Of a stretch of DNA of 50,708 nt, positions 22,651 to 49,385 are shown piece after piece. Position numbers and translations under genes: made by a program. The DNA is from Candidatus Cloacimonadota bacterium (lineage in GTDB: Bacteria; Cloacimonadota; Cloacimonadia; Cloacimonadales; Cloacimonadaceae). The number at the start of each line of letters is the position of its first letter. Position 1 is the first letter of the stretch. The stretch is from positions 1 through 50,708 of the forward strand of contig JAGOKK010000004.1 in assembly GCA_017994635.1 (NCBI GenBank), given 5' to 3'. The notes beneath the pieces are model-generated. The model was given only the letters and a program-made list of their open reading frames with translations, made no database searches and was not told the origin of the DNA.

Positions 22651-22687
22651 TGCATAATCGAAAATGTTTGTTTGGGAGGATTCCTCG

Positions 22688-24878: not shown

Positions 24879-27800
24879 ATGAAGAAACACCTCATCATGC
24901 TGGTCTTGGCAGTTCTGGCGAGTTTGCTAGCTGCCGGTACCATCAATCTGCAGTCAACCCCGGCTCAGGCCAAAATCCTGAGCAGCTCATCGGAAGGCCT
25001 TAGTGTAAGGTTCGCAGTCGATACTTTCGAGTATCAGGAAGTTAACACAAAAGAAGGCGTTTGGACTATGCTGAACGCCAAAGATTATACAAGCACCAAT
25101 CGCGTTGGCGAGCCTGCTTTGCCGCTGATGCGCAAGATTATTTCCGTGCCTTTGGGTGCCCGTCTGGACTATAGTCTGTCCGATACCCATAAACGCAGTG
25201 TTTCCCTGGAGGCATCGGGAGTCCGTTATCCCATCATACCGGCCCAGGAACCAGTAGCCAAGTGCGATGATCCTGCCAGCTTGAAGTTTAGCGTTAACCG
25301 CAATTTCTACAATGGCCAAAGGGCCACCTCCGAAGCCACCATCCAGCTTACAGAGCTCGGCATGATGCGCGGCGAACGTCTGGTAGCCCTGGATTTCATC
25401 CCGGCGAATTACAACCCCGCCACCAAGAGCCTGGACGTAACACTTGCCACCAATGTTGACATACGCTTTGTCAATGCAGATTACATTGCCACTTCGGAAC
25501 TGAAGGGCAAAGCCTATTCCCCTGTCTTCGCGTCGGCGATGGCCAGTAGCGTGTGGAATTACCAGGATACCAGAATAAGCCTGATGCGCTACCCGGTGGG
25601 CTACGTGATCATCACTCCTGCCAGCTTTATTCCCGCCTTGCAGCCCTTTGTGGATTGGAAAACCCGTGAAGGATATGCTGTATCGGTAAACACTATTGAG
25701 AGCATTGGCAATTCCACCACCGCTATCAAGACTTTCATGCAAAATCTCTGGAACAGTGCCACTACCACCAATCCCGCACCCAGCTACTTGCTCATCGTGG
25801 GTGACGTAGCCCAGGTAGTGAGCAATAGCGGCACCACTGGTAGCCACCCTACAGATCTGAATTATGTGCGTCTGCAAGGCAACGACTTCATGCCAGAAAT
25901 GTACTTTGGCCGTTTTTCTGCCACTACACCGGATGAGGTAACCAATCAAGTAAATAAAACTCTCCTGCACGAACAGTACGCCATGCCTGATGATAGCTAC
26001 CTGCAGAATTCCGTATTGATCGCCGGTATGGATAGCTACTATGCCCAAACCCATGGTAATGGACAGATCAATTACGCTACCCAAAACTACTTTAACACCA
26101 GCCATGGTATCGATGCCCATACATATCTCTACCCCACTTCCGGCAGTTCACTCACAGCCATCAGAAATGATGTCTCTGCTGGCGCAGGATACGTGAACTA
26201 CACTGCCCATGGCGGAGTGACGGATTGGAGCGATCCCAATTTTACCATCTCTCACATCAATCAACTGCAAAACACCAATAAGTACCCAGTAGTAGTAGGG
26301 AACTGCTGTCTGACCAGCAAGTTTGATTCTCCCATCTGCTTTGGCGAAGCCTGGCTCAGAGCTACTGATAAAGGTGGTGTCATCTACATCGGTGGCACCA
26401 ATAGCACTTACTGGGACGAAGACTACTGGTGGGGCGTGGGTGCAAAGGGCAGTGCCACTGGCAACGCTCCAGCCTACAATGCCAATACATTGGGCGTGTA
26501 TGATGCAGTGTTCCATGATCACCAGGAAGATTTTACCGATTGGGCATACTCTGCCGGCGGCATGGTCGTGATGGGAAACATGGCCGTGGTACAAGGCAAC
26601 AGCTCTCGCATAAACTACTACTGGGAAATATATACCATCATGGGAGATCCCTCTTTGATGCCCTATATGGGTATTCCGGCTGATAACAACGCAACAATCC
26701 CTGAAACCTTGTTCCTGGGTCTGGGAACCATGGAAATCATGGCTGATCCCTACAGTTATGTAGCCTTGTCCATGAATGGTGTGCTGCATGGTGTAGGCTT
26801 GGCTGATGAAAACGGGAATCTCACCCTGAATTATACTCCCTTCACCGAACCCGGTATGGCAGATATAGTGATTACCCGTTCCATGCGTCAACCACTTATT
26901 TCCCAGATATCCGTGATCCCCAATGAAGGAGCATACGTGACGGTCGGACAGATCGTTCTGGCAGATGACAATGGCATCGCTGAAGCCGGCGAGAGCCTTC
27001 CCATCGATCTCACCTTCAGCAATGTTGGTGTGCTGGATGCGCAAAATCTCAGCGTCAGCATCACTACCGATAGCCCCTGGATCTTTGCCAATCAAAGCGA
27101 AGCAACGATCAATGACATCGCTTCTGAAACCCAGATCACCGTGGAAGATATCTTTACTTTGAATATCAATCAGGGCACTCCGGATCAGCATGTAGCTACC
27201 TTTATCATCACGGTTACCGACGGCACCAATGAATGGAGTTCCACTCGCGCTCTCACCATCAATGCTCCAAATGTGATCATTGCATCCACATCCTTCTTTG
27301 ATCCAAACAACAACGGCGCTTTTGAGGCTGGTGAATTGATCAACATCACTCTGAATATCCAAAATACCGGCCACATGCCGGTGGAAAGCGGCGCACTGAA
27401 CCTGATTTTAAATAGTGATCAGGCGAGCTTGCCGTTGAATAGCTTTTTGATTCCCGGTCTGAACATCGGGAACAACCTGCCGCTCAGCTTTGATCTGCAG
27501 CTGGCAAGCACTGTAGTAGATGGCTCTGTGGTACCTCTTGGCATAGTCCTGGATATGGGTGCACAGATGATCAACCACAGCGTTATCATTCCCATCGGAG
27601 CAGTCGTGGAAGGCTTTGAAAGCGGCGACTTCTCAGCATTCCCCTGGGTAAATAGCAGTTCTTCTCCCTGGACAGTGATCGGAAGTGATGCGGCAGAAGG
27701 CACCCACTCCGCCAAGAGCGGAACCATCGGTAACAATGCCAGCACATCACTGCAGATCGTGATGAGTGTTGGGATGGATTCTGAGATCAAGTTTAGCCGC

Positions 27801-28649
27801 AAGGTGTCCTCCGAGAGTAACTACGACTTCCTGAAGTTCTTCATAGATGATGTCGAAATGGGTTCCTGGAGCGGCAACCGCCCCTGGGGAGAGGAAACTT
27901 ATAGCGTTAGCGCTGGGACCAGAACCTTCAAATGGACCTACGTGAAAGACGTCAGCCAGAACTCCGGCTCTGACGCAGCATGGATCGATAACATTATCTT
28001 CCCGCTATCCGCAGATGGAGATGTGGCCATGTTCTATACTGGAACTCAAAGCCTAGACTATCTGGTGAACCCCAATTCTACGGTCAGCAAGGACATCGTC
28101 ATCCGCAACCTGGGTACTGCCAATCTGGATGGGCTGATGTCCATCCCGGCTGAGTTCGTTCTCAGCTATATGGGTCAGGAACTTCCCGATGACTATTATT
28201 ACAGCATCGCACCCAGCGTCACTGCGGTATTCACCATGACCTACGTAGCAGGCAACACTGTTCCGGAACTCAATTCACAGGTGCAAATCACGTCCAATGA
28301 TCCTGATATGCCTACCTATTCCATCCCCGTGACTCTTACGCCTGTCTCTAATAATGACAATATAAATCCCTTGATTACCTCTCTGACTGGGAACTATCCC
28401 AATCCTTTCAATCCCAGCACTTCCATCCGCTTCAGCTTGAAGGATGCAGGGAAAGTAAGGATCCAGATCTACAATCTCAAGGGACAATTGGTGAAGAATC
28501 TCATCAATAGTGATCTGCAGTCTGGTAACCATCAGATCGTATGGGATGGCCGTGATGATCGCGGAAACGGCGTTTCCAGCGGTATCTATTTCTATCGCAT
28601 GGAAAGTGGCGATTACACCCGTACCAATAAGATGATGCTTATGAAATAA
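24879..28649 (+). CDS. gingipain-like C25 protease with C-terminal sorting domain (copy 1)
   Basis: 1256 residues, exported. Order: signal peptide (1-20); a propeptide-like region to about 230; C25 caspase-like catalytic domain (about 238-600); Ig/CARDB-like modules (about 600-910); a cleaved-adhesin or MAM-like jelly roll (about 913-1044, 'FESGDFSAFPW' to 'AAWIDNIIFP'); a linker; and the type A/FlgD-like sorting domain (about 1170-1256, NYPNPFNP to KMMLMK). The catalytic pair is H444 (NYTAHGG) and C477 (GNCCLTSKF), 33 residues apart as in gingipain RgpB (H211/C244). C476 precedes it. ATG 24879 follows TAGGAG; ATG 24855 lacks a site. Confidence 0.88.
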   Translation: MKKHLIMLVLAVLASLLAAGTINLQSTPAQAKILSSSSEGLSVRFAVDTFEYQEVNTKEGVWTMLNAKDYTSTNRVGEPALPLMRKIISVPLGARLDYSLSDTHKRSVSLEASGVRYPIIPAQEPVAKCDDPASLKFSVNRNFYNGQRATSEATIQLTELGMMRGERLVALDFIPANYNPATKSLDVTLATNVDIRFVNADYIATSELKGKAYSPVFASAMASSVWNYQDTRISLMRYPVGYVIITPASFIPALQPFVDWKTREGYAVSVNTIESIGNSTTAIKTFMQNLWNSATTTNPAPSYLLIVGDVAQVVSNSGTTGSHPTDLNYVRLQGNDFMPEMYFGRFSATTPDEVTNQVNKTLLHEQYAMPDDSYLQNSVLIAGMDSYYAQTHGNGQINYATQNYFNTSHGIDAHTYLYPTSGSSLTAIRNDVSAGAGYVNYTAHGGVTDWSDPNFTISHINQLQNTNKYPVVVGNCCLTSKFDSPICFGEAWLRATDKGGVIYIGGTNSTYWDEDYWWGVGAKGSATGNAPAYNANTLGVYDAVFHDHQEDFTDWAYSAGGMVVMGNMAVVQGNSSRINYYWEIYTIMGDPSLMPYMGIPADNNATIPETLFLGLGTMEIMADPYSYVALSMNGVLHGVGLADENGNLTLNYTPFTEPGMADIVITRSMRQPLISQISVIPNEGAYVTVGQIVLADDNGIAEAGESLPIDLTFSNVGVLDAQNLSVSITTDSPWIFANQSEATINDIASETQITVEDIFTLNINQGTPDQHVATFIITVTDGTNEWSSTRALTINAPNVIIASTSFFDPNNNGAFEAGELINITLNIQNTGHMPVESGALNLILNSDQASLPLNSFLIPGLNIGNNLPLSFDLQLASTVVDGSVVPLGIVLDMGAQMINHSVIIPIGAVVEGFESGDFSAFPWVNSSSSPWTVIGSDAAEGTHSAKSGTIGNNASTSLQIVMSVGMDSEIKFSRKVSSESNYDFLKFFIDDVEMGSWSGNRPWGEETYSVSAGTRTFKWTYVKDVSQNSGSDAAWIDNIIFPLSADGDVAMFYTGTQSLDYLVNPNSTVSKDIVIRNLGTANLDGLMSIPAEFVLSYMGQELPDDYYYSIAPSVTAVFTMTYVAGNTVPELNSQVQITSNDPDMPTYSIPVTLTPVSNNDNINPLITSLTGNYPNPFNPSTSIRFSLKDAGKVRIQIYNLKGQLVKNLINSDLQSGNHQIVWDGRDDRGNGVSSGIYFYRMESGDYTRTNKMMLMK

Positions 28650-28657
28650 ATCCCCCC

Positions 28658-28693
28658 GGCTTGCCCCTCACTTGAGGGGCAGCCTTTGTTTTT
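28658..28693 (+). terminator. rho-independent terminator after protease copy 1
   Basis: GGCTtGCCCCTCA (28658-28670) pairs with TGAGGGGCAGCC, which ends at 28684, with one bulged T and a minimal loop. A T-rich run follows to 28693. Confidence 0.85.
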
Positions 28694-28775
28694 GATATAT
28701 ATACATCGGAGCCAATGTGAGCTCCACAAAGCATAAGAAGTGATAATCTATATGAGATACAATGGAGGATATACA

Positions 28776-31700
28776 ATGAAGAAGCTCATTGTGTTACTAA
28801 GCCTGTTATGTACTCTCGGCCTTTGGGCAGAGACTGTCGTACTGGGCGAACAAGCGAATCAGATACGCCTGATTAACAGCAGCGAATACTCTTCGCGTAT
28901 CGAACTGAGCCTCGGATCTTTCGAGCGTGAAGCAGTACAGATCGATGGCCGTACATGGTATTTGCCGACACTCAAGAAAGCTGGCCTCACACTTGAGACC
29001 GGATACCCACAAGTTCCTGTTATGGCAGCCAGCGTGATCATCCCTGCCACTGCAGGAATGGTATTGAACATCATACAGAGCGAGTATGTGGATATCCCCA
29101 TGCCGATCGCTCCTTCCAAGGGAAATCTGACCCGCAATATAGATCCTGCAAGCGTTCCCTATAGCTTTGCGGATTTTTATAACGGAGACGACGCCTATCC
29201 CCTCAGCACTGCTTACCTCAGCGAACCATTTATCATGAGGGATTACCGAGGGATCACTGTGCGTTTCCAACCCTTTGAATACTTCCCTGATACGCAGACC
29301 ACCCGCGTCTATACGAAGCTTGTGGTCGATGTAGTGGCCAACGGTAGCGACTTCACCAATGCAGCCAGCACAAATATGCGCAAAGAAAGCCCTGAGTTTT
29401 CTGGAATCTATCAAAGCATGTTCCTGAATTACGCCAGCGCCAAGTACCCAATCCTGAGTGAAGAGGGGCGCATCCTGGTGATCACACACTCCATGTTTAA
29501 CGACACTATCCTGCCCTGGGTAAATTGGAAACGCCAAATGGGTTACACTGTTGACGTGGTGGACGTTTCGGTTGCCGGCCCCAGCGCCAGCAATATCAAG
29601 ACCTACATTCAAAATCAATACAATCTAAACGACGGCCTGAAGTACGTCCAGCTTATGGGCGATGCGCCCCAGGTTCCTTCGCTATCCTTTGGCGGTGGTG
29701 GCAGCGATCCATCCTATGCCCTTTTGGCCGGTGCTGACAACTATCCGGATATCTTCATCGGCAGATTCTCCGCCCAAAGCGTAGCGGAAATGCAAACCCA
29801 GATTCAGCGTTCCGTGTATTACGAACGCGATATGCAAGCTGATGACGATTGGATCATCCGCGCCATGGGCATTGCCTCAAACGAAGGTGGGGGCAGTCAG
29901 GGTGATATGGGCGAAAGCGACCAGGCACACATGGAATTGATCCGTACCGACTTGCTGGGTTACGGCTACAGCTCTGTGGACCAAATGTATCAGACAATGG
30001 GTGCTACCGCTACTCAGGTTGGGACAAACGTAAACAACGGCCGTGGCTTCATAAACTACGTGGGGCACGGATCCGACAATTCCTGGGTAACTACCGGCTT
30101 TAATAGCAATAACGTCAATGCCCTCACAAACGACTTCATGCTCCCCGTGATCGCATCTGTGGCTTGCGTGAATGGGAACTTTGTATCCCAGACCTGCTTT
30201 GCCGAAGCCTGGCTGAGAGCTACAAACAATAACAATGGCAATCCCACCGGTGCCACCGTGATGTACGCATCCACGGTAAATCAAGGCTGGAATCCACCCA
30301 TGAGAGCGCAGGATGAGATCACTGATCTGGTGATTGCTGAAGCTATGACCACAGTTGGTGGCCTTTTCTTCCATGGTTCATCCAAGATGATCGAAGTGTA
30401 TGGCACCGATGGTGTGGAAGAGTACAAATGCTGGACCATCTTTGGCGATGCGTCGTTGATGATGCGCAGCAAAACCCCCACTCTTATCAGTGCGGAATAC
30501 AATCCCGTCCTGTTGATCGGGATGAGCAGTCTCCTGGTGCAGACCGAACCCAACGCACGTTTAACTCTATCTGCCAATGATGTGATCTATGGTAAAGCGA
30601 TCGCTGATGCAGGCGGCACAGCCTTGATCACTCTGGAAGTTTTACCTGATGAGCCGATGGATCTCACGCTTACCATCGCCGCATTTAACAAGGTAACCCA
30701 CATGGGCATCGTGCAGGTCTTGCCTGCAGATGGCCCCTATCTGATCGTAACCGGTGTGAATGTAAACAGCGGTGTACCTGCCCATTATGGAGAATTGGTT
30801 AATGTCCAGATCGACATGGAAAACGTGGGTAATGATCCAGCAGAAATCATCAGTGTGACTATCGAAACAGCCGATCCATACCTCAGCGTGGTTGGCGATC
30901 CCGAAGTGATCAGTGTGATTGCTGCCAATGCTACTGGCAGCACCAGCAGCGGGATAAATCTGCAGATTGCAAACAACACCCCTGATCAATGGATAGCTCC
31001 TTTCACTGTTCATATCAGCCTTCCTGATGGTGAAGAATTCAGTGCCGACCACAGCCTGGTGATCAATGCTCCTGTATTGGAATGGGGATACTTACAAGTG
31101 GATGACAGCCAGGGCGACGGCAATAACCGGATCGATCCCGGTGAAAGCTTCATCCTCGGCATTCCCTTCACAAATATGGGACACTCGATGAGCCCTGACA
31201 TCCATACAACGCTGATTGTCAATGGCGGTGAGCACCTTATGAATCCCATCGCCAATGATTTCGAAGCTCTGGATGTGAATGGTAGCGCGATCATGCAAAA
31301 TGAGATAACCCTTTCTTCTCAAGTGACTCCCGGCACCACGATCCAGATCATTGCCATGGCTAGCATGGGAGATTACACTGTCGTAAATACTTACAACGTT
31401 ATTGTGGGCATTTTACTGGAGAACTTTGAAAACGGTTTTGGTAATTATCCCTGGGCTTTCACCGGTGGTGATTGGACTACCAGTGCCAACGGTTATGGGA
31501 GCACCATGGCCGCACAAAGTGCCACCATCGGCAACAATCAGAGCACCAGCATGAACATCACCATGACCAATCCAGTCGATGGCATAGTTTCATTCTGGAA
31601 AAAGGTCTCCAGCGAAGTAGGACGCGACTACCTGAAATTCTATATCAACGGTATGCTCAAAAACCAATGGAGCGGTATCGATGAAAACTATTCTCAGGTA

Positions 31701-32459
31701 AGCTACATGGTAGCTGCTGGGACCAATACCTATCGTTGGGAATATGCCAAGGACAATTCTGTATCCGCCGGTAGTGATTGCGTGTGGATCGACGATGTAG
31801 TCTTCCCCGCCGAAAGCTTGAACAGCGGTAGTCCTGTGCTGGAAATAGACCAAACCAACCTTGATTTTGGCAATGCCAATATCGGGGAAGAGCTGGTCCT
31901 GCCCCTCATCATTTCAAACACTGGAAACGCCGGCATGATCGGAACCCTGCAAATCCCCGCTCCCTATTCCCTGGATAGCAGTGTTTCCGAAACGGTTAGC
32001 TTCATGAATTACACCATCCCCGCGGGCGAGACTCTGGAACTCTCCATCGCTTTCAGGCCGCAGGCTGAAGGTGTGTTTGCCGGATTCCTGATCGTCACTT
32101 CAGACGATCCTGATGCTCTGCAGACAAACATCCCCCTGATGGGCAGTGCTACCCCGGTCAGCAACAACGATAATGTGAATCCCGTAGTTACCAGATTGGG
32201 CAGCAACTACCCCAATCCCTTCAATCCAAACACCACCCTCAGCTATTCCCTCAAAGAACGCGGTGAGGTAAAGATAGACATCTACAATGTACTGGGTCAG
32301 AAAGTAAGAACCCTGGTAAATGGCGTGATGAACGCCGGGACACACTCGGTATCCTGGAACGGTATGGATGATAATCGCCGTCCTGTAGCCAGCGGAGTGT
32401 ATTTCTACAAGATGCAATCTGGAACATATACCAATACTCGCAAAATGATTCTGATGAAA
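28776..32459 (+). CDS. gingipain-like C25 protease with C-terminal sorting domain (copy 2)
   Basis: 1228 residues. Signal peptide (1-20), propeptide-like region, C25 catalytic domain (about 230-570), CARDB-like modules, jelly-roll module (about 884-1012, FENGFGNYPW to DDVVFP), an Ash/Hydin 'anchor D' module (about 1026-1125, LDFGNANIGEE), then the NPFNP sorting domain (about 1142-1228). H431 (NYVGHGSD) and C464 (ASVACVNGNF) are 33 residues apart; CVNGNF...CFAEAWLRA closely follows the RgpB pattern I recall. Start at 28776 with GGAGG seven bases upstream. Paralogue of the preceding gene, separated by a terminator; specificity (Arg/Lys or other) cannot be read from the sequence. Confidence 0.88.
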
Positions 32460-32486
32460 TAGACGATCCCCATTGCCTCATATAGA

Positions 32487-32520
32487 ACCCGGATGTAGTT
32501 TCATCCGGGTTTTTCTTTCA
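32487..32520 (+). terminator. rho-independent terminator after protease copy 2
   Basis: AACCCGGATG (32487-32496) pairs perfectly with CATCCGGGTT (32503-32512), 6-base loop, followed by a T-rich run. It lies 27 bases after the stop codon. Confidence 0.9.
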
Positions 32521-32836
32521 TCCCGTGATGATGCCCCCCTACTCACCTGAGATCAAGTCAAACCCCTCCTGAACCCTTCCTGAATCCGGTTCAGGAAACC
32601 TTTGGGTGGCGTCCTGGTGGCGTACAAGCTGGCAGAGGGGAAGAACTGTAAAACACACTGGGATATGTCTCCCACTCCCCCAGATCAATGGTGGTGCGCA
32701 GAAGCAAAGCTGAGTATACTTGCTACAATGCCCCCATTTCCCACACTTACAGCACCAGTATGTAGATATTCCGCAGGCACAGCGTCAGGACTTCTTTCAG
32801 TCCATCGGCGCAGAAAGCATTCTGGGCAAACAAAAA
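32521..32836. other. intergenic region between convergent genes
   Basis: Contains the third palindrome copy (32579-32595 core) and otherwise unrecognised sequence. The longest open frame (32602-32865, +) has no ribosome binding site and runs through the terminator, so it is not called. Confidence 0.55.
32562..32625. repeat. dispersed palindromic element, copy C (diverged)
   Basis: The core CCTGAATCCGGTTCAGG at 32579-32595 is nearly the same as the core of copies A and B. The flanks keep GAACCC on one side and GGGTGGCG on the other but are otherwise rearranged. Confidence 0.55.
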
Positions 32837-32858
32837 AGCGGCGCCTTATGGCACCGCT
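32832..32858 (-). terminator. rho-independent terminator of the pilin-like gene
   Basis: AGCGGCGCC (32837-32845) pairs with GGCACCGCT (32850-32858) with one mismatch over a 4-base loop. On the minus strand TTTTTT follows. Confidence 0.75.
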
Positions 32859-32882
32859 GAAATGATTTTGGTCAGCTTCTGT

Positions 32883-33371: not shown

Positions 33372-33526
33372 TATATTCTCCCAAGCGTATTCATCTTTGC
33401 CTCCACTATTTTTCAGCTTTCCTTTTTTGTCAAAGCTTTTTTTCCATAGTGTAGTGCATAGGTCACCAAGCTGATTGGAGCCTGGACAGAAAGCTATCCA
33501 GGAGTACAGGTCTTGATTTGGCCAGC

Positions 33527-38800: not shown

Positions 38801-41800
38801 AGCATCACGTTATCCAGCATGATCCTTTGATAGGTGCTGGTATTACCATGCCTGAAGGCAATGTTCTTGCCGGGACCTGTGTAAGCGCCTAAACTGACCA
38901 CATACTCTGTCCATGTACTTGCAAGAGTGATGCTTTGGATCAAGGTGAAGGATCCGGGATCCGCTGGATTGGTCATCACTCCTACATCCACAGTGGTGCC
39001 TGTGGAATAGGTCATCCCGGAGAATTTGGTTCGAGTGGTATTGGTTTGAATATCGTTGGCATAAGGTGGAGCAATCAGAATCAGTGGCTGATCGGTGCTG
39101 GATTCATTGTATATGAACGCGTGATTGGGCGCCGATACAGCTTCTGAAGCATCGGTGCCGATGCTGCCCGTGGCTCCGGTACCGATGATCGTACTCCATT
39201 GCACAGGCAATGCAGGTTGCGTTACAGTGTCGAAGTTTTGCAGATATGGCAACGAGACAATCGTAGGATCAATGCAATCTCCCCCAAAAGTCAAGGTGTG
39301 GGCGGTTCTATCCGTACGCATACCAATCCTGCGAGTAACATTCTGATCGTCTGTGATGGTGATCACCGCGTTATGCTCACCCACAGCGGTGGGATTGTAA
39401 CGCACTGTGAACGTGATCACTTGACCGGTAGCCAGCGCTGTCGGCAAAGTAGGCAGACCCAGCATGGAGATATGGGGTGTGTCACTGATGCTGATAGAGT
39501 TTATACCCAGGGTCCCCCCACCCACATTCATCACTCTTACTTGTTTATCATGCACCGAGTTCAGCAGCACTGTCCCATAATCCCAGGTGGCAGGAACCGC
39601 AAGAAACACTGGATCATCAGAGAGCGGCGTCATATGGAAAGTGATCATGGGATATACACTAATCGGATTCACACCTGTTGGGGGCGCTGCAGGATTGTAA
39701 TCGGTACCGTCGGCATACACATTCAAGCTCCTGAGTTGAGTCCCGGTTTGTGAACGGAAGCGATCATCGGAACTGTAATACGTTACATCCATGGGGCGCT
39801 CCATCAGCAAAACCAGGTTTCCTCCGGCGTAAGTGACTGGTGTTTGCAGGGGGAATGTGATGGTGTTTTCCCCCGCAGGGAAGTTCACATTACCGTCGAA
39901 GACCAGAGTTAATTCTGTGGATGGTATCCATCCAGTAGAAAGATCGTCTTGAGTGGTGCTCCCCAACCAGATCCTTGCTGGCATATTGGGAAGATTTGTC
40001 ACGAAGTTATTGTATATGCTCACGCTGGTGATGCTGCCAAAAGCCATCATCTCATCGGGGTAGTACAGGGTTTCAAACAAGCTGTTGCGATAGAAGAAAT
40101 CCATCGGGATGCGGTTCAATTGATCGCCGCTTCCGATAGTCGTAGCCATGATGTTCTCCGGAAACACCGTTAGGTTTATGGGCGCACATTGGTCGTTCAG
40201 AGCGTTTTGATCTCCGGCAAGGATCACTTTGGCATACATAGCCAGGGGGCCCTCCACCGTAGGAGTCCAATCAATCGGGACTTCTATTATCTCATCGGGA
40301 GCCACGCTCAAACCAGGGGCTGTGGCTAGCTCCACATCGTTGGAGGCATTATGCAGCGCAACCTGGTAAACGTTTTGGGTCAGGCTGCCGCGGTTTATGA
40401 TGCGCACATTATATGTGCTGTTATTATTCACTGAAGGGGTGGTGTTCCCGCTCAAGCTCAGCACTGCCAGGTCATTCTCTGGTGATATCTCCAGCATCAC
40501 AGTATCCAGATAGTTCGTTATATACGAGTTTGTCTGCGTATGCTTGAAGGCGATGAATCGGCCCGTACCGGTATAGGCGGAAAAATTAAGGATATACTCT
40601 GCAAAACTCGAGCTGAGGGAGACTGTATGCACAGGGATGAAGCTCGTGGCATCGGATGGACTGGTCATAACCCCCACGATCAAATCTGAAACCATGTTTG
40701 ATGAACGGGCAAAAAAGCTGACCCGAGTATTTGTAATATCTATGCTATCATCCAGAGGAGGCGCAATGATGAAAAGATTAGCCGCAGTATCCTCTGAGTT
40801 ATACATCTCCACAGCGTTCTGAGCTGAGTGATATGTGGAATTCTGTGTCCTTACATAGGCCCATTGTGAGGTAGTATTTACCAGTTTGGACCAATCCAGA
40901 GGAATGGCAGGGACATCCACTGTGTCAAAGTTTTGGACGTAGGGCAAGCTATAGATGTAAGGATCCATGCAAGAACCAGTGATGTTTACGGAGTGCGTAA
41001 GCCGGGTGGTATCATCCACCACGGTCAGTACTGCGGTGTGATTTCCTGCTGCAGTGGGAGCATACTGCACGGTGAGGGGAATGTATTGCCCGGTAGTGAG
41101 GCTAATCGGTAGAGCAGGAGGGTTGGTGATTGTGAAGAATGGACTGCCGCTAAGACTCACCGAACTTACCATCGCAGTGCCCCCACCTCCATTCATGATG
41201 CTCATATTGCGGGTTACACTCTGATCCATCAAGGTCTGAGGGAAGTCGAGTGGATCCGGGGTTACCATCACGATGGGATCATCCGAAAGTGGAGTCATGT
41301 GGATGGAAGTCTTCGGGAAACCAAGACTGGCCGTGACCCCAGTGGGAGGATTTGCCGGATCAAACTCCGAGGAATCGCTTTGTGAGCGCAAGGATCTAAG
41401 CTGTGCGCCGTTCTGACACTGAAACACATTGTTGGAATCAAACCAGGTCGTATCAAAGGGTCTGTTTACCAGCACCACCAGATTGCCGCCGGCATACGTA
41501 AATGGAGTGGACAGCGGGATCAGGATGTTGTTTGCACCGATGGGGAAGTTTACCGTGGAATCAAAGACCAAAGTGAGGTCGGTAGAGGGGATCCACCCCC
41601 CGCTCAGATCATTATCAGCCGTGGTGCCCATCCAAATCTTCACCGGCTTGTTGGGTAGATCTGTTACGAAATTGTTGTAGAAAGTAAGGGCAGAGATGGT
41701 GCCGAACATGTTGATTTCCTGGGGGTAATATATGGTCTCAAAGAGGCTGTTTCGCCAATACATATCCACCGGCATGCGGTCCATCATACTGCCGTCACCG

Positions 41801-42822
41801 ATGGTGATCACGGCAAGTCCCTCCGGCATCACAGTGACAGAAAATGGCTGTGTGATATCGTTTTGCGGGTTTTGATCACCTGGGAGCACCACTTTCCCTC
41901 GTAACTGAACCGGACCCTCAACGGTGGGTGTCCAGGACAAGGGGAAGACATGAGTGGCTCCCGCTGCCAGGGCCACTCCCGTCGCCGAGGCCAATACGCT
42001 GTTTGCCGCATCTATCAATTGCACAGTATAGGCGCTTTGTGCTGAAGTTCCCCGGTTGCGGACGGTAACGTTGTAGGTGGTGGCGGAGTTCACCGAAGGA
42101 GTAGTGTTTCCCGTTACGGAAACGGCCGCCATATCGTTTGGTTGTGCAACGCTGGGGATAAACTCATATACCACTCCCTCACCGGGGTATTCTGTAATGG
42201 AATTGTTCGAGTTTGTATCTGAATACAGAGCCGGAGTACCCGGAGTGATGCTATAAAACCAGCCCGATCCTCCCGGGGTCATATTGATGCCAATAGAAGC
42301 CGAAGGATTGTCGTTCGTACCCGTCATGGGTCCGTAGCAGAATTGGATCTTACCGCCCTCGTGCAGTTTTACCTGCATATTGATCGATGTATCACCGGAA
42401 TAGTTCCAGCGCATATTGTTGTACTGCACGGTAAAGACGCGATTGGGGGCGCTCCCGGAAAGCAGAGTTTCAGCAGTGCCTCCAGTCAGGGAAGTATCGT
42501 CCCAGAGAATTGCCAACACCTGCAGCCATTCGGTAGAGGCAAGATCGTTGGAGAGATTGGAATGGGAAAATGTATTACCAAGCCCCACCCAACCGTTTGA
42601 AGAAACCATGATGTTCTCCACATTGGCATCACCGTAAGGGAAGGGAAAACCAATGGCAATGGCTGGCGACAATACATCATCCGATATCAATTCCGGAATC
42701 TGGGTGCCGGTTATCGAAGTGTAGGTAGCTGTGGTGGAACTGAAGGAGTAGTACTCCGACATATCCGCAAAGATTAAAAAACAAAGGGTCAGCAGGGCCA
42801 TTATCAGGCATAGCTTTTTCAT
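35878..42822 (-). CDS. giant repeat adhesin-like protein with C-terminal sorting domain
   Basis: 2314 residues from ATG 42822 (AAGGAG six bases upstream, clean signal peptide MKKLCLIMALLTLCFLIFA); the frame is open to 43050 but the extra 76 residues are not signal-like. Order: N-terminal domain; three long tandem units of about 553-564 residues (starting near 227, 780 and 1344, the last partial), each a CARDB-like module (NTTPSVN...) followed by a jelly-roll part; two carboxypeptidase-regulatory-like modules (about 1633-1800); fibronectin III and jelly-roll modules; another regulatory-like module; the sorting domain (about 2224-2314, PNPFNP to KMLLME). Probably surface-exposed or secreted. 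Confidence 0.85.
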   Translation of the reverse strand: MKKLCLIMALLTLCFLIFADMSEYYSFSSTTATYTSITGTQIPELISDDVLSPAIAIGFPFPYGDANVENIMVSSNGWVGLGNTFSHSNLSNDLASTEWLQVLAILWDDTSLTGGTAETLLSGSAPNRVFTVQYNNMRWNYSGDTSINMQVKLHEGGKIQFCYGPMTGTNDNPSASIGINMTPGGSGWFYSITPGTPALYSDTNSNNSITEYPGEGVVYEFIPSVAQPNDMAAVSVTGNTTPSVNSATTYNVTVRNRGTSAQSAYTVQLIDAANSVLASATGVALAAGATHVFPLSWTPTVEGPVQLRGKVVLPGDQNPQNDITQPFSVTVMPEGLAVITIGDGSMMDRMPVDMYWRNSLFETIYYPQEINMFGTISALTFYNNFVTDLPNKPVKIWMGTTADNDLSGGWIPSTDLTLVFDSTVNFPIGANNILIPLSTPFTYAGGNLVVLVNRPFDTTWFDSNNVFQCQNGAQLRSLRSQSDSSEFDPANPPTGVTASLGFPKTSIHMTPLSDDPIVMVTPDPLDFPQTLMDQSVTRNMSIMNGGGGTAMVSSVSLSGSPFFTITNPPALPISLTTGQYIPLTVQYAPTAAGNHTAVLTVVDDTTRLTHSVNITGSCMDPYIYSLPYVQNFDTVDVPAIPLDWSKLVNTTSQWAYVRTQNSTYHSAQNAVEMYNSEDTAANLFIIAPPLDDSIDITNTRVSFFARSSNMVSDLIVGVMTSPSDATSFIPVHTVSLSSSFAEYILNFSAYTGTGRFIAFKHTQTNSYITNYLDTVMLEISPENDLAVLSLSGNTTPSVNNNSTYNVRIINRGSLTQNVYQVALHNASNDVELATAPGLSVAPDEIIEVPIDWTPTVEGPLAMYAKVILAGDQNALNDQCAPINLTVFPENIMATTIGSGDQLNRIPMDFFYRNSLFETLYYPDEMMAFGSITSVSIYNNFVTNLPNMPARIWLGSTTQDDLSTGWIPSTELTLVFDGNVNFPAGENTITFPLQTPVTYAGGNLVLLMERPMDVTYYSSDDRFRSQTGTQLRSLNVYADGTDYNPAAPPTGVNPISVYPMITFHMTPLSDDPVFLAVPATWDYGTVLLNSVHDKQVRVMNVGGGTLGINSISISDTPHISMLGLPTLPTALATGQVITFTVRYNPTAVGEHNAVITITDDQNVTRRIGMRTDRTAHTLTFGGDCIDPTIVSLPYLQNFDTVTQPALPVQWSTIIGTGATGSIGTDASEAVSAPNHAFIYNESSTDQPLILIAPPYANDIQTNTTRTKFSGMTYSTGTTVDVGVMTNPADPGSFTLIQSITLASTWTEYVVSLGAYTGPGKNIAFRHGNTSTYQRIMLDNVMLEVNPLNDLAVLAITGNSTPTVNYPNTYQVTVFNWGSLPQTDYQIKLYGAQNQELASIVGAPITPGQALPHDIIWSPTAEGPSFIYAKVILAGDQNPQNDEGPHFNVTVQPEGVYMITVGEGNELGRIPMDMFYMNSLYECIYYPADLSNTLGMIMGLGFHNNFVSTLSQMPVNIWMGTTTLQDLSAGYIPSTELTPVFSGLVDFPSGENVIHIPFAQPFFYLDGGNLVVMVERPMDTQYYSYQDRFKTQTGTALRSINVFSDGTDFDPASPPNGNATGTFPKTSFFVIPGGVGHIQGVVTGENSQALADVNVDFTSGGYHTTTNATGEYGIINIIADDYTVNFSHYGYIGQTHNVSIPEDVTVTLNVNLLPMPTVTVSGSIVASDTGSALAGAMIHLSGYQDYTVNSTATGSFTIPAVYANQSYEYTIICPGYSNLTGIIEVAAVNYSMGIITMNEIAYAPHNVLAQLNDTYDAINLSWEVPDPTAIEITESFEAPEFPPLNWQRIVTNNGPVNSVGVYPTWCRFGTISIGGEPVSPPDGSSQAGLWWDYNHQDEWLITPSFNCPSEAYITFDSYVFLGSENNDHYLIKASSDAGNTWTTLWDASTQTGGWNYYDSSITVDLSAYAGIEISLAMHADDPPSNDGLWYHWFVDNVYIGNALTSVSFDGPIQNRSRSFIPGLSSISRTPDQPSRAMANGWMREEQCLPKRGTGRSRALDQRVLTGYNVHRLLAGQEANQALWTLINGDMITIPEAIDESWTDLPNGTYRWAVTAVYTAGVNSAPAFSNPVVREQLYGTIVGFVRRSNNQGIAGATVSSGDYSATTNNAGAYSLYLPAGLHDVTATAPGFNPLVMNQINVIPNQNITMNFVLIPTSNEDDLNPVVATTLKGNIPNPFNPSTTILYDILLPCPVKLDIYNARGQKVRTLINEWKASGHHSVVWNGRDDKGRATSSGLYFYRFSAGDYSSTRKMLLME
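36666..36690. repeat. hairpin inside the adhesin gene
   Basis: TGCCTG (36666-36671) and CAGGCA (36685-36690) enclose a CCC/GGG extension. On the coding strand this encodes CLPKRGTGR within a basic linker of about 40 residues between two folded modules. The look is of a palindromic repeat inserted in frame. Confidence 0.5.
37925..42142 (-). repeat. tandem 1.66-1.69 kb coding repeats
   Basis: The unit beginning with a NTTPSVN- or NSTPTVN-like sequence recurs with spacings of about 1658 and 1692 bases (near 42142, 40484 and 38792). The repeats are also similar at the DNA level, so they are recent duplications or under gene conversion. The third is cut short near 37925. Confidence 0.7.
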
Positions 42823-43148
42823 CGTTGTCTCCTTATATCTTGCCTTGTTTATTACAATTAAGTACGTGAGTATCCAGAAAGCGCTATCGCTTGGCGAGAT
42901 AAAACCAAGCTCGTCGCAAGCATTTTGGATCCGCTCTATTCTGTAAAGTGTTATTTGGGGCAAATCGTGATTGTTAGTACCCCATGATTGACGATAATCC
43001 ACAAAGGAGCTTATGGGACGGATCGTCCTTTTTGGAAGTCGAACCTGCACAAGAGTGGATTGGTATGATAGTATGCGCTATGTAACGATGATGCAGTATC
43101 TGCCAGGATGCGATACTTGGTGCTTGGAGCTTAGTTGACTTTTTATCT
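42823..43148. other. intergenic region between translocon and adhesin genes
   Basis: 326 bases. A 41-codon open frame (43013-43138, +) with AAAGGAGC upstream is the only gene-like item. No strong promoter was recognised. Confidence 0.5.
43013..43138 (+). CDS. candidate 41-residue small protein
   Basis: ATG 43013 has AAAGGAGC four bases upstream, a very good ribosome site. The product is Cys- and Trp-containing with no membrane segment and no recognised family. It is antisense to the flanking genes and may be a chance frame. Confidence 0.2.
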   Translation: MGRIVLFGSRTCTRVDWYDSMRYVTMMQYLPGCDTWCLELS

Positions 43149-46100
43149 TTAGAGATTCACTTCCACCCACACGCCTAGGGAGAAGATGCGAGAGCCGTCA
43201 TCGCGTTTGCGATCGGTGGTAATCTCGTAGCTGGAAGTAAGGCCACCGCGTATGTTTTGATCGAACTGATATGTGGCGCCGGGAGTAAAGGCCAGGCGTG
43301 AATTGGAACGATCCACTTGTGAGTTTTCCCTGCCTTTGGTTACATCCTCGCTATTCTCGTAATTGATGCCCATTGAGGCGGAAAGCTGGTTTTTGATGTG
43401 GATTTTCTTGCCGGTGAAGGGGATGGTAAAGCCACGTCCCTGCGTAAAGCTATAAGACAAATTCCCATTCAGAGATTGCGTATCACTGGTCTTCACGATG
43501 TCGTATGTATCCATATCCGAGGTATTGGTGGTGTGGGACATAGAAAAGCTGAGGTTGGTGGAGAGCTTTTGCATGATATTACCAGTGAAGCCGATCAAGG
43601 GTGACATGGAGATGGTTACCGATTCCTGTTTGGGTTTCACCCAGTCGATATCCCCACTGGCCCTGGTGGTGTATTGGAAACCGGTATTGAGTCGCGCTCC
43701 TTGCAGGAAACGGGAGATCCCCAGCCAGGGTTCCCAGTTCATCAGGCTTAGAGTGAAATCGGGGAAGGTGGTGGCTGTATTTTGCTGGCTGGCAGTGGAA
43801 TAGCGGCGGTTGAAACTATGGGCAAAATTGAGCGTACTGTCCAGGTTGCGGCCTAGGAAAAGGCCCGATGATAGAGTGATCGTATTATCATTGCCGATGG
43901 CATCCAAAAAGTCTCGCTCCACGGTATGTGGCATACCGATCTGAAAACTGAAGGGCGGCAGATTGCTCTTGCGAGTATAATTCATCGTATAGCTATTTTG
44001 ATAGGAGGCTGTGATGTTCTTGATCCTGGCCATATATTCCACGAGGAGGAGCACAGGATTGATGCCCGGTTTCTTCTCTTCCTTTCGGGTAGAATCAGCC
44101 GGAGTCTTCTCATCAGGATTCAGCAACTCAGTTTCTGAGGGCATTTCCATGAAGCCGCCGGAATCCTCTTTGAGTTCCTCTTCCGTTTTTCCCTCATATT
44201 CTTTCAAATCTTCGTCGGTGCTGGCTTCATACTCCCCATCTTTGGGCTCTTCGGCATCCTTCTGCTTTTCTTCGTCCAGCCTTTTTTGTTCTTCTTCTTT
44301 TCGTTTCTGTTCTTCCAGTTTCTTTTGTTCCAGTTCCTTTAGTTTCTGCTCTTCACGTTTTTTATTATCTTCCTCTATCCGATCCAGCTTTTTTTGCTCT
44401 TCAGGACTCAGCTCTGGCTCTTTGAGATCCCCATCGGACATATAATCCCTATCTTCCTTAAAATCAGGATCTTTGGGTCTTACAGAGTCGCCCCGCTTAC
44501 TTCGCATCTTGCTAGCCCAGGCCGTAAGAATGGTGGAGTTTTGCAGGGATACATTGGCCCTAATGCTGCGATTGCTGTTGCCATCCCTTTGGAAAACCTC
44601 CACTTGGGTCCCTTCTTGAGTTTCATAGTACTTGCGCATCATATCCGTGAAGCGAGCGGTGACGGCAGAGGATACCTGCATCACCCGGGGCAGATAGTTC
44701 GGCGAATAGTTTAGGCCAAAGTCTTGCACAAATTCGGTCTGCTTACCGATATTGATATCCTGGAAATAGACTTTTTGAAGGAGGTCACGTTTCGTATTGT
44801 AGCGTGCAGAGAGGCTTAAATCGCTGGTGATGGGCCAGGTGGCATTGTTATCGCTGGTGAAGAGCTTGGTTTCCACGATCTGAGTGCGTCTGTGCCAGTC
44901 ATACACTCCCTCGCGGAGTTCCCAATTCCAGCTTTGAGGTCGGTTATTACTTAGGGTAAAGCTATTACTAAACGAACTGGGGAAAAAGCCCAAGCGATAG
45001 TTACCCAGGATGGGGAAGCTCACTTTATCACTGGCAAAATTGAGGTTGTAACCCATGGTACCGCGCCAGGAAGTAGTGCTATCGATAGTGGTAGCTGAAT
45101 GGTTTTCCCGCTTTTCCATATTTCCAGAGAGGGTTAGCTTGCCCAGACTGTACAGTAGTATCTTGTTTGTGGTTTGATTCCGCATGGAATAGCCGAAATC
45201 AGCATAATACACTTGAGTTTCGGTACGTTCTCGCTCGCGATCTTCCGGATTGGGCAGATTGTCGATCAGCAGATCCGAATTAGCGCGATATCTAGGCGAA
45301 CCACTGGTGGTTTCTCGGCGCAAGGTGACCGGGATATCCAGCCCCCAGGAATTGGGAAAGAACTTGTTTACAAAAACCTTATTGGTTATCCGGAAGCTTT
45401 CGGTGCTGGTAAAGCTGTTCTGACGTCCGCGCTGGATTACGGGATTGAAGTTCTCACTCTTGGATTCATACTCCATATCCACCGTGGCCAGATCCGCGAG
45501 CTTTGTATTCAGACTTATTCTTTGTGCGATGCCCACTTCCTGATATGGATTGGTTACCCTCATGTCGTTAAAGAAGACCGTCCCGCTATATGGAGCGTTT
45601 TGGGTGTCGGTGCGGGGATTCTTGACTCCCAGATAGAGTTCTCTTATGGCGGTCAGGGTAGGCCTGCCGCGGTAGAAATAGGTAGTGTCACCCACGATCA
45701 AGGTATCGGAACTGGCATTTGTATCCAATTCCTTGAGGGCAGTGATATCCTGTAGATCAAACGAAAGTTCAGACCACGAGTTTTGGTCCATCTTGCTCAT
45801 GTAAGCAACTACGGGGACCTTTTTGCTGACCTCATAGTAGTTTAGCGAATCAGCTCCAATGCGGAAGAATACCTCCAGGTCATGAGCAAAAGCGCCAGGC
45901 ATTGCCTCGGGATACACCCAATAACGCAGACCTTCATAAGCCAATAGATTGTATGAATCCAGCATCCGCTGGCGCAGAACCACCTGGTGTGAGCTTTGCA
46001 GATTGGCGATATCCAGAGACAGCGCAGATTCGTTTGATTCACGCTTTTCTTCGATGTAAACTGTGCCGGGGGGCGAGGTGTAATGATTTGAATTCTTCTG

Positions 46101-49100
46101 ATTATTCACAATCCCCGTAAGGTAACTGGTGTTATATGCAGCCAATTCAGATTCATTGAGTATTCTGCCACCAGCGTCACGCACGAAGAAATCCTGCCAT
46201 TTATTGCCTATCACTGAGGCATCTGCGATATAGACCCGGGCTGGAGAATCACACTGCAGCCAGATGCGGGCATATGAGATCTTTTCCAGGCTGGGCGGTG
46301 CCCCAGTCTGATAGCTGTTTACGATCGTGAAAGCTTCAGGATCGCTAAGTGGTATGCGGTAAAGCACCCAACCGTCATGGTTTTGCCCTGTGGTATCGGC
46401 CAGAGAGATACTGTAGCTAAAGTATCGGTCCAGATTGTCGAGAACACCGTCTGCATCCAGATCCTCGGTATCCAACACGCGGTTACCTTCAGAACCATTG
46501 ATATCGGGGTAATCGCCATAAGCGTCCATTTGAGTGCCAGCCAGATCAAAGGGATCGTGCCCCGGTTCGCCATGGACAATGCCATCCAGACCGATATCCT
46601 CATCCAGAGTAAGAACGCCGTCCTGATTTGCATCCTCGGTATCGGGTACACCGGGTCTGCCATATTCTGTGTAGAAATCCTCGTTTATATCCCCCAAATC
46701 CACTGTGAGGGTTACGTTCGGTCTATCTTCGTTTTGGGGTTTGTCCACCTTTACCAATAGTTCGATATACTTCTTCTCTGAAAAATCAAGCTGATTGCCC
46801 AGATACTTCATCACCCCGCTCCAGCTTTGCACTCCGCTTCCTGGCATATACAGCGTACTGGGCCAATGCCTTAGCGCGAGTACGGTGGCGGTCTCGCGTC
46901 GTTCGCGCTCAGTGAGGGTGGCCGGGTCTTCGATCTGTTCGCGGCGAATGTTTTTGGGATTGTACCAATTCATTCTTCCCTTGGCCAGGGCAGTACCATA
47001 GGGTTTGCTACCCAGTACCCAGGTGGAAATGGTTACTCCTAGAGGATACGAATCCATGATGGCTTCCATGTCGTCCACATAGGATACCTTACGCTTGGAA
47101 TCTGCATCGCCATAGATATTGGGGATAGTATAGGCTACTTCTCCGGAGAGAGATATCTCGCTGGCTTTGGTGGTGGAGATCAGCGGCAGGGCATCGATCC
47201 AGCGAGTGATGAAGGCTGGTTTGAAGCCAATGGTGCCGTCAAGGTTCGCCAGCCACATTTGGATGTTTTCGTTGCCAATGCGGGGACGCTTGTCAGAAAC
47301 CGTTTCAGAACGATAGATCAGGGTGCCACCGAGTTTGGCGAAGTCAGTAAACTGCCAATCTGCTCGCATCCCCGCCAGGGTTTTTCGGGTTACATCAAAC
47401 ATCGAGCGATTCTCATAATCGATCTCGATCTTGGCGTCGGGATCCTTGCCTGCAGCAGTGAGGAATGTGATGCGGCCAAAATCGTAATCCACCAGGTAAT
47501 CTACGTTCTCTTTTTGATCGATGCCGTTTACCCTTACGCGCACGCTACCCTTCAGGATGCCACTTTGGGAGAGTTCAATGGCTTCGCGGCCAATTTTCCC
47601 TTTTACAGATAAGTAAAACTTCAGATTCTGATAGTTTACGGCTTCGTGTTCCTTTTCATAGATCTCCACTTCGCCAAGAGGACGGAAAGGTTCCAGAAAA
47701 GGAAACACCACCAGGCCGGAGGATAGCTTTACTGTGGCGTCATCGCCATTGATAATGCCATCTCCGCTACTGTCCAGGCGCAGATAATCCGTATAAGTGA
47801 TCATCCCCCCCACACTCAAAGAATCGGGAAGATTGTAATTTCTGGTGTTATCAGAGTTTAGAGTATATATATCCAGCAAAAAGCCTTCGCTCTTGACATT
47901 GGTTTTGTTCATGTTGTACACGTTGCGCATCTGGTATCGCCAAACGTTATCAGGATCGTCCGAATCCGGTTCCTGATTCTTCTTGCGAATCACGAAGGGA
48001 TAGATCATCTCGTTATCCGGAAGTTCGTGTTCCACTTCATAATCCGCGGAGTATACCATGCTGCCATCGCGGCGTTCGTAGATCACAGCCAGAGTGGCCT
48101 GACGATTCAGGGTCTTCAATACAGTAATGAAGCCGGCGTCATAGTCCGTAATGTAATCCGTGCCTTCCACGAGTTTCTCATAGCGAGGAACATAGGACGT
48201 GTAGCTATTTACCCAGACGGTATCGCCAATTGCCAGGGGTTGGTCATTGGTAGTGATGGCATCATCGTAATACAGATTCATGCTACCATATTCGGGGAGT
48301 AGGTTCGCATTTTTGATAATCCAGGAGCCATCAGGGGCAGTCTTCACAGCATTATCGATCCATCCGCTGGGGTTACTCCCGATATCCGCTTCACTATATA
48401 GATCGTACAAAGAAGTGGGATCGGCCAGGAAATACATGGTGCGGGGAGCGTAATCCCTGCTGCGGAATACCACGCTGTCAGCCTGGGATTGCCCTACGTA
48501 GGACATTGTATTTTTCTGTCCCTCTTCCTTGGAAGCTATCACCGAGAGATCCAGATCGCCATATTTGAACTTGCTGGTTATCCCGAAAAGTCCCTGTGAA
48601 CTGGTACTATAGCTGATGTACTTGCTGCCGGTCAGGCTCAATGTGATGTTACCGGCTTCCACGCTCTGGACTACCTCATCTTCATCGCCAGTGTATCTGA
48701 TATTTACATTGTTAGGATCAAAAAGCTGATCATCCTGATTGGAATTGTATTTCAGGTTTACAGCGATCTTTTCACCAATCGTTCCCGTTAGTCGCAGGTT
48801 CGTCTCCTGCTCCATCTTGATATCCAGAGTGCTGCGGTTTTCAGTTTCATAGATGGGGATCTGTTTACGTTTGGTGCTGCTAACTTGCATGCTGATCTTT
48901 TGAGTGCCGTCCAGATTCAACCTGCCTGCCTTGTTACCCAATACACGCTGCACAGCCTTGGGGATGGCGATGGCAGGCAGATCCAGCACGAATTCACCGA
49001 TGAGGCCTCCGGTACTTACTTCTGTGCTCTGCGTTACCTGTTTTACGTTTGTATTCAGCGACTTACGAAATGAATGCGCCCGCATGTTGGCCAGATAGGC

Positions 49101-49385
49101 ATCAAAGGAAAGCGGAATATCCGGGATCAGTTTCTGCCCTGCTAGTATGGTGGAGATGATTACCTGTTGTTTCTCAAAATCCACTTTCTCGGTGCGCTCA
49201 ATGGCCATGGAGGGGATCTCGTATGGCTTATTGCGATATACGTTTAGCCCCTTATCCAGCTTATAAATATCCGCCTTATTGTTGATGAGGGGATAGTAAC
49301 CCGGAAGATACAGCCTGGGCTCGAAAGTGTTGGCCAGAATGGCCAGAGGAATCAGGCAGAGCAGGATAAGGATCCGGATTTTCAT
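43149..49385 (-). CDS. SprA/Sov-like type IX secretion outer-membrane translocon
   Basis: 2078 residues, signal peptide MKIRILILLCLIPLAILA. The N-terminal third has the hallmark of SprA (Sov in Porphyromonas): LKYNSNQDDQLFDPNNVNIR followed by YTGDEDEVVQSVEAGN, then repeated beta-strand pairs such as QGLFGITSKFKYGDLDLSVIAS. The remainder is a very large beta-barrel ending in SLGVWVEVNL. SprA forms the giant barrel through which type IX cargo crosses the outer membrane. A lysine/glutamate-rich stretch (residues about 1635-1778, DNA 44050-44480) interrupts it. The start overlaps the coaX stop by 4 bases. Shorter than Bacteroidetes SprA (about 2400). Confidence 0.82.
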   Translation of the reverse strand: MKIRILILLCLIPLAILANTFEPRLYLPGYYPLINNKADIYKLDKGLNVYRNKPYEIPSMAIERTEKVDFEKQQVIISTILAGQKLIPDIPLSFDAYLANMRAHSFRKSLNTNVKQVTQSTEVSTGGLIGEFVLDLPAIAIPKAVQRVLGNKAGRLNLDGTQKISMQVSSTKRKQIPIYETENRSTLDIKMEQETNLRLTGTIGEKIAVNLKYNSNQDDQLFDPNNVNIRYTGDEDEVVQSVEAGNITLSLTGSKYISYSTSSQGLFGITSKFKYGDLDLSVIASKEEGQKNTMSYVGQSQADSVVFRSRDYAPRTMYFLADPTSLYDLYSEADIGSNPSGWIDNAVKTAPDGSWIIKNANLLPEYGSMNLYYDDAITTNDQPLAIGDTVWVNSYTSYVPRYEKLVEGTDYITDYDAGFITVLKTLNRQATLAVIYERRDGSMVYSADYEVEHELPDNEMIYPFVIRKKNQEPDSDDPDNVWRYQMRNVYNMNKTNVKSEGFLLDIYTLNSDNTRNYNLPDSLSVGGMITYTDYLRLDSSGDGIINGDDATVKLSSGLVVFPFLEPFRPLGEVEIYEKEHEAVNYQNLKFYLSVKGKIGREAIELSQSGILKGSVRVRVNGIDQKENVDYLVDYDFGRITFLTAAGKDPDAKIEIDYENRSMFDVTRKTLAGMRADWQFTDFAKLGGTLIYRSETVSDKRPRIGNENIQMWLANLDGTIGFKPAFITRWIDALPLISTTKASEISLSGEVAYTIPNIYGDADSKRKVSYVDDMEAIMDSYPLGVTISTWVLGSKPYGTALAKGRMNWYNPKNIRREQIEDPATLTERERRETATVLALRHWPSTLYMPGSGVQSWSGVMKYLGNQLDFSEKKYIELLVKVDKPQNEDRPNVTLTVDLGDINEDFYTEYGRPGVPDTEDANQDGVLTLDEDIGLDGIVHGEPGHDPFDLAGTQMDAYGDYPDINGSEGNRVLDTEDLDADGVLDNLDRYFSYSISLADTTGQNHDGWVLYRIPLSDPEAFTIVNSYQTGAPPSLEKISYARIWLQCDSPARVYIADASVIGNKWQDFFVRDAGGRILNESELAAYNTSYLTGIVNNQKNSNHYTSPPGTVYIEEKRESNESALSLDIANLQSSHQVVLRQRMLDSYNLLAYEGLRYWVYPEAMPGAFAHDLEVFFRIGADSLNYYEVSKKVPVVAYMSKMDQNSWSELSFDLQDITALKELDTNASSDTLIVGDTTYFYRGRPTLTAIRELYLGVKNPRTDTQNAPYSGTVFFNDMRVTNPYQEVGIAQRISLNTKLADLATVDMEYESKSENFNPVIQRGRQNSFTSTESFRITNKVFVNKFFPNSWGLDIPVTLRRETTSGSPRYRANSDLLIDNLPNPEDRERERTETQVYYADFGYSMRNQTTNKILLYSLGKLTLSGNMEKRENHSATTIDSTTSWRGTMGYNLNFASDKVSFPILGNYRLGFFPSSFSNSFTLSNNRPQSWNWELREGVYDWHRRTQIVETKLFTSDNNATWPITSDLSLSARYNTKRDLLQKVYFQDINIGKQTEFVQDFGLNYSPNYLPRVMQVSSAVTARFTDMMRKYYETQEGTQVEVFQRDGNSNRSIRANVSLQNSTILTAWASKMRSKRGDSVRPKDPDFKEDRDYMSDGDLKEPELSPEEQKKLDRIEEDNKKREEQKLKELEQKKLEEQKRKEEEQKRLDEEKQKDAEEPKDGEYEASTDEDLKEYEGKTEEELKEDSGGFMEMPSETELLNPDEKTPADSTRKEEKKPGINPVLLLVEYMARIKNITASYQNSYTMNYTRKSNLPPFSFQIGMPHTVERDFLDAIGNDNTITLSSGLFLGRNLDSTLNFAHSFNRRYSTASQQNTATTFPDFTLSLMNWEPWLGISRFLQGARLNTGFQYTTRASGDIDWVKPKQESVTISMSPLIGFTGNIMQKLSTNLSFSMSHTTNTSDMDTYDIVKTSDTQSLNGNLSYSFTQGRGFTIPFTGKKIHIKNQLSASMGINYENSEDVTKGRENSQVDRSNSRLAFTPGATYQFDQNIRGGLTSSYEITTDRKRDDGSRIFSLGVWVEVNL
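44050..44480 (-). other. lysine/glutamate-rich charged insertion in the SprA-like protein
   Basis: Encodes about 140 residues that are mostly K, E, Q and D, with repeated KEEEQKR-, KKLEEQ-like units and an acidic tail. Predicted coiled coil then disorder, within a protein otherwise of membrane barrel type. Confidence 0.75.

Follow-up and report, generated by a model that had tools for sequence, protein, structure and literature searches.

A probable type IX secretion variant in Cloacimonadota: canonical outer-membrane components without recognisable GldK, GldL, GldM or GldN

Can a type IX secretion system be maintained outside the Bacteroidota, and what would drive it there? The question is raised by a 50,708-nucleotide stretch of DNA from a Candidatus Cloacimonadota bacterium (assembly GCA_017994635.1, contig JAGOKK010000004.1; hereafter the window), in which a gene for a SprA/Sov-like outer-membrane translocon lies close to four genes whose products end in sorting-type domains. 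In the draft genome from which it comes (2.12 Mb, 149 contigs, 92% complete) the window is contig 35. Most papers call type IX secretion Bacteroidota-specific and powered by a GldLM engine, and a few say that it is possible in Cloacimonadota; in Flavobacterium, cargo is released from SprA only with the GldLM motor, whose action passes through GldK and partner proteins (PMC10994853, PMC12635249). A first-pass annotation of the window, made from the sequence alone, had proposed a type IX system in a Cloacimonadota-like lineage with cargo kept beside its pore. The analysis described here points to a type IX variant of Cloacimonadota that combines a canonical outer-membrane half with an energiser other than GldLM, a reading that we consider probable.

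The translocon gene (43149..49385, minus strand) encodes 2078 residues that match the SprA model TIGR04189 with 538 bits over five stretches, against an equivalog cut-off of 200, and PF14349 with 79 bits; SprA of F. johnsoniae (PDB 6h3i) could be aligned to it with an E value of 2e-40. The SprA/Sov-like assignment is thus upheld by strong profile matches. When an alignment of this protein was scanned against 84,980 species genomes, 79 loci were recovered, nearly all of them under the title Cloacimonadota or Cloacimonetes and the most distant under Fermentibacteria and Aegiribacteria, and the lineage guessed from the window is thereby borne out. By PF14349, SprA orthologues are present in 71 of 71 high-quality Cloacimonadota genomes, mostly as a single open frame of about 2000-2150 residues, and all genomes that lack one are less than 90% complete.

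Two further components of the outer-membrane half are encoded elsewhere in the same genome. A full-length PorU sortase (contig C1 of the window's own genome, G000, positions 37469-40666) scores 617 bits with NF033707 against a cut-off of 420 and aligns with PorU of known structure (PDB 6za2) over 207-1289, nearly the full length, with an E value of 1e-46; PorU was found in 69 of the 71 high-quality genomes. A second, PorU2-like C25 protein is encoded on contig C82, adjoining a PorV-family gene. The PorV family itself has about ten members in this genome and 7-17 per genome in all 20 genomes searched; the family-level model NF033709 gave 206 bits against a cut-off of 90, and the narrower equivalog NF033710 was not reached (69.9 against 250 bits). 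The first-pass annotation had noted that neither PorU and PorV nor GldK to GldN lay in the window and had proposed a search of the genome for them: PorU and PorV are there, no match to GldK, GldL, GldM or GldN passed its cut-off, and the possibility that every other type IX component would be absent is set aside.

The number of PorV-family genes and their positions suggest a further peculiarity. Eight divergent members were read in the window's own genome (L011:10572-11555 and at loci L012, L013, L014, L016, L140, L141 and L142), about 20-40% alike where aligned, and six of the eight directly adjoin a sorting-domain gene, a class to which only some 4% of the genes belong (80 out of an assumed total of about 1,900). 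In F. johnsoniae a single PorV serves every type A cargo, and cognate shuttles are confined to type B (PMC12618676); dedicated PorV-cargo pairs for type A cargo, as this linkage suggests, would therefore be a second possible difference from that organism.

The cargo genes of the window were all recognised by profile where the first-pass annotation had placed them. Two C25 (gingipain-type) proteases of 1256 and 1228 residues are encoded on the plus strand at 24879..28649, with the start set at the signal peptide, and at 28776..32462; they match PF01364 with 237 and 187 bits, and both have in addition a propeptide and a C-terminal immunoglobulin-like (Ig) domain, followed by type A sorting domains at 28395..28637 (TIGR04183, 40.4 bits; 45.0 in the genome scan) and 32208..32450 (42.4 bits; 46.9 in the genome scan). 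A protein 54% identical to the second protease is encoded in a relative whose genome is a single contig of 2,246,820 bases, used here for comparison. Neither protease qualifies as PorU, scoring 89.7 and 64.1 bits with NF033707 against the cut-off of 420. On the minus strand follow a beta-propeller protein of 713 residues with Reg_prop repeats (33527..35668; PF07494, 63.5 bits; sorting domain at 33542..33781, 32.8 bits) and a large surface protein, the giant adhesin of the first-pass annotation, of 2314 residues (35878..42822; NF038128, 100 bits, and PF13620, 98 bits; sorting domain at 35890..36129, 27.0 bits), which contains choice-of-anchor J and D, CARDB and CarboxypepD_reg domains. The open reading frame of the latter, at 2390 residues, is over-extended, and the methionine of its signal peptide at 42822 gives the shorter length. 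The propeller protein was also considered as PorZ, which it resembles only in outline (NF052228, 47.5 bits against a cut-off of 260, over the C-terminal part only). All four C-termini exceed the TIGR04183 cut-off of 23 bits, confirming that these neighbours have a sorting-type domain in common, and the window cargo proteins examined have a signal peptide at the start as well.

Their position beside the pore is another matter. Genes matching TIGR04183 number about 80 in the window's own genome, or one per 26.5 kb, and 69 in the single-contig relative, and four genomes contain 52-97 sorting-domain matches each. In the flanks of sprA in 20 relatives we counted 8 sorting-domain open reading frames over about 221 kb, one per 28 kb, which is the background rate, and the four genes of the window do not occur as a set beside sprA in any of these relatives. 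The four sorting-domain genes form a mild cluster, within about 7-18 kb, with a Poisson P of about 0.005 for one named place, and this flanking of sprA is what speaks for a dedicated functional unit of cargo and pore; when 80 such genes are placed at random, on the other hand, half of the genomes hold four in a row within a 12-kb span, and the cargo genes lie on both strands in differing directions. Because the rate of cargo genes at sprA matches that of the genome, there is nothing unusual about the four genes in a genome so rich in cargo, and they are not a conserved pore-cargo unit; a dedicated unit is very improbable, and the proposal that cargo is kept beside its pore is not supported.

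What, then, of the motor? According to an annotation-based review, GldLM is exclusive to Bacteroidetes and is, like ExbBD and MotAB, a motor of the 5:2 structural class (PMC9389320). The Gld profiles available were built on Bacteroidota, and the searches with them ran without a Bacteroidota positive-control genome. Under these conditions GldM was found in none of 20 genomes with TIGR03517 and in none of 123 over the cut-off with PF12081 (GldM_1st), for which a single match below the cut-off was seen. GldL (TIGR03513) was over its cut-off in 0 of 30 genomes, with weak matches like those in unrelated controls (Bacillus and archaea), and GldK (TIGR03525) reached 350 bits in 0 of 10, the best match, of 106 bits, lying mainly in the C-terminal half that is shared with sulfatase-modifying factors. 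GldN (TIGR03523) was likewise found in 0 of 30 genomes, yet its profile had no match in any control either. Nor does a motor-like gene pair adjoin sprA or porU. Since GldK, GldL and GldM were searched for and not found, the type IX system here cannot be filed as a standard one; of the proposed type IX system in Cloacimonadota, the part comprising SprA, PorU, PorV and type A cargo stands, and no recognisable GldK to GldN that would complete it was found.

A candidate for the missing function is encoded on contig 16, where eight genes run in the order TonB-dependent receptor, ExbB, ExbD, ExbD, TonB, a C-terminal-domain (CTD) protein of 1043 residues, a PorV-family protein and a type A cargo protein of 727 residues. 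The receptor has a plug domain, and the motor proteins are recognised by PF01618 (ExbB, 88.6 bits), PF02472 (ExbD, 79.4 and 51.1 bits) and PF03544 (TonB_C, 83.1 bits). The same eight genes are found in the same order and on the same strand in 17 of 17 loci from other genomes, the single-contig genome included, as far as the contigs reach, down to 28-60% identity. The 1043-residue protein (L012:3545-6676) ends in a sorting-type domain and belongs to a family that is present in 67 of the 71 high-quality genomes; profile searches gave it no relative in Pfam or PDB, and an AlphaFold model, with a predicted local distance difference test (pLDDT) value of 49, was too poor for a fold search. The operon PorV (L012:6687-7718) matches PorV of known structure (PDB 6h3i_F) with an E value of 1e-20 and carries at residues 203-234 a conserved acidic tandem, DxDxDG..DED, that is calcium-binding-like, recurs in the 1043-residue protein (residues 188-198 and 267-277) and was not seen in the other seven PorV paralogues read. 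Mapping onto F. johnsoniae PorV and strand parity in a weak model place the tandem probably on the outer face or an outer loop; the AlphaFold model of this PorV (pLDDT 54) was again too poor for a fold search.

Motor genes of this class are few. In ten genomes spread over the phylum we counted only 2-6 MotA/ExbB genes per genome, mostly three, and in all ten an ExbB gene lies within 2 kb of the 1043-residue family. Besides the operon there are a TolQR-like set and a third locus (L138:1030-9001; L147:4586-13982) that encodes ExbB (80.8 bits), two ExbD-like proteins (31.1 and 24.2 bits, over and under the cut-off of 25.4), a protein that weakly matches the AgmX tail, and a giant tetratricopeptide repeat (TPR) protein of 1935-1954 residues. 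SprA and the ExbBD-TonB operon are both near-universal in the phylum. Because the operon is linked to PorV and cargo genes, and because ExbBD and GldLM fall in one class of 5:2 motors, we take it that, among the candidates to power the release of PorV-cargo complexes from SprA, the ExbB-ExbD-ExbD-TonB set has the best linkage.

Reading from gene content, conservation and linkage to secretion itself, its energiser and cognate shuttles, we infer a sequence of events that would follow the Bacteroidota at the outer membrane. By sequence, SprA, PorV-family shuttles and PorU co-occur with dozens of type A sorting-domain proteins, and the system very probably works like type IX there. Sec would deliver the cargo to the periplasm, where its sorting domain would dock on SprA along with a shuttle of the PorV type; shuttle and cargo would leave as a complex through the side gate of SprA, and PorU would trim the cargo or anchor it on the surface. 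The step at which GldLM and GldKN act in Bacteroidota is release and, as no recognisable GldK, GldL, GldM or GldN was found, this step probably falls to a different proton-driven motor here; gene linkage suggests that the ExbB-ExbD-ExbD-TonB set may drive it. The specific proposal of a GldLM-free translocon driven by ExbBD-TonB, with TonB pulling PorV-cargo complexes or their partner out of SprA, is one that we advance tentatively and judge to be rather unlikely in this exact form. If it were correct, one class of motor would serve both machines, with an exchange of the motor between them in evolution.

Several observations weigh against a non-GldLM variant powered in this way. The uncalibrated sensitivity of the Gld profiles outside Bacteroidota and the GldN null, which carries no weight, leave room for a complete canonical system whose GldK, GldL, GldM and GldN are present and too diverged for the profiles used, the more so as the phylum retains SprA, PorU and PorV-type proteins, whose Bacteroidota counterparts do not function without the motor (PMC10994853). 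Divergence of that extent is nevertheless unlikely: SprA and PorU score 2.7 and 1.5 times their cut-offs, GldM gave nothing over the cut-off with two models in up to 123 genomes, the GldL matches are at the noise level of Bacillus and archaea, and neither sprA nor porU has a motor-like pair beside it. The literature searched contained no experiments on secretion in any Cloacimonadota, which, along with the motor genes that were not found, could be taken to mean that SprA is a remnant or now serves another purpose, with no type IX secretion taking place. This is hardly credible in view of a SprA gene that no high-quality genome lacks and that is mostly a single open frame, a full-length PorU and sorting-domain matches by the dozen in each of four genomes.

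The same caution applies to the operon. An ExbB-ExbD-ExbD-TonB set beside a TonB-dependent receptor also fits a plain nutrient-uptake operon, and it may be the cell's ordinary, perhaps only, TonB system. In that case the translocon would draw its power from a different 5:2 motor (the TolQR-like set, for instance, or the ExbB-ExbD-ExbD set of the third locus), an alternative that we regard as possible though short of likely. Most genomes examined do have three MotA/ExbB loci, the operon is headed by a plug-domain receptor, and the third locus recalls in outline the Agl/Glt gliding motor of Myxococcus, in a phylum that is not known to glide. Its AgmX match, however, stays below the cut-off (24.7 against 40 bits). 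Only the operon set, of the three, is linked to PorV and sorting-domain genes, and this linkage is kept across the phylum. The most reasonable reading thus remains a type IX variant with a canonical outer-membrane half and a non-GldLM energiser, for which the conserved operon is the first candidate to test.

The surroundings of the translocon gene are otherwise variable. Its sole fixed neighbour is coaX, for a type III pantothenate kinase (49382..50185, minus strand; PF03309, 154 bits), which overlaps sprA by 4 bases and adjoins it in 20 of 20 relatives fetched and in the single-contig genome, the other neighbours being unrelated; coaX is probably not part of the secretion mechanism. In one relative (G024) porU (L051:2652-6545) lies immediately upstream of coaX and sprA; no other case was seen in which the genes for sortase and pore are physically linked. 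A short SprA-like segment (about 600-667 of the profile) was also seen in a protein of 1075 residues, probably an outer-membrane barrel (L015:6326-9553), and proteins of ~1,100 residues with the same segment occur in many of the relatives searched. The window contains in addition a Skp/OmpH-family periplasmic chaperone gene (5487..6155, minus strand; PF03938, 95.7 bits) in its usual lpx context, a run of lpxA, lpxC/fabZ and lpxD; in F. johnsoniae, SkpA belongs to the translocon as one of its subunits (PMC10994853), a role that the window protein might share. A small barrel at 21707-22309 was rejected as a PorG of the known type, since it has no cysteine (PMC12635249). Just upstream of the cargo genes lies a TPR-histidine kinase (22664-24637), and at 568-2055 a double-Cache sensor protein in which no output domain was found.

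These results make translocon, shuttle and sortase a core trait of the whole phylum, in which no recognisable motor gene was found. An outer-membrane half separated in this way from its engine is a natural setting in which to ask what power SprA requires, and it suggests how Cloacimonadota could place many proteases on their surface. In Candidatus Stygibacter, of the same phylum, a C-terminal surface-attachment domain has been reported on a scaffoldin-like protein of a cellulosome-like set, with citation of a review of the type IX secretion system (PMC8542988); the passages found there describe neither translocon and sortase nor the question of the motor. Compared with the type IX systems of Bacteroidota (SprA-PorV-PorU of F. 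johnsoniae, Sov-PorV-PorU of P. gingivalis), the Cloacimonadota have SprA, PorU, PorV-family proteins, type A domains and gingipain-type cargo in common with them and differ in having no recognisable GldK, GldL, GldM or GldN. F. johnsoniae has one PorV for type A cargo (PMC12618676), in contrast to the many paralogues here, most of the fetched ones beside a sorting-domain gene. The arrangement recalls SprF/PorP with type B cargo, where a shuttle gene likewise adjoins the presumed cargo gene, except that here the shuttles are of the PorV family and the cargo is of type A, and linkage suggests cognate use. Finally, the operon has the order ExbB, two ExbD, TonB_C beside a plug-domain receptor that is seen in ExbB-ExbD-TonB energisers but, unlike a plain system of that kind, runs on into a CTD protein, a PorV-family shuttle and a second CTD protein.

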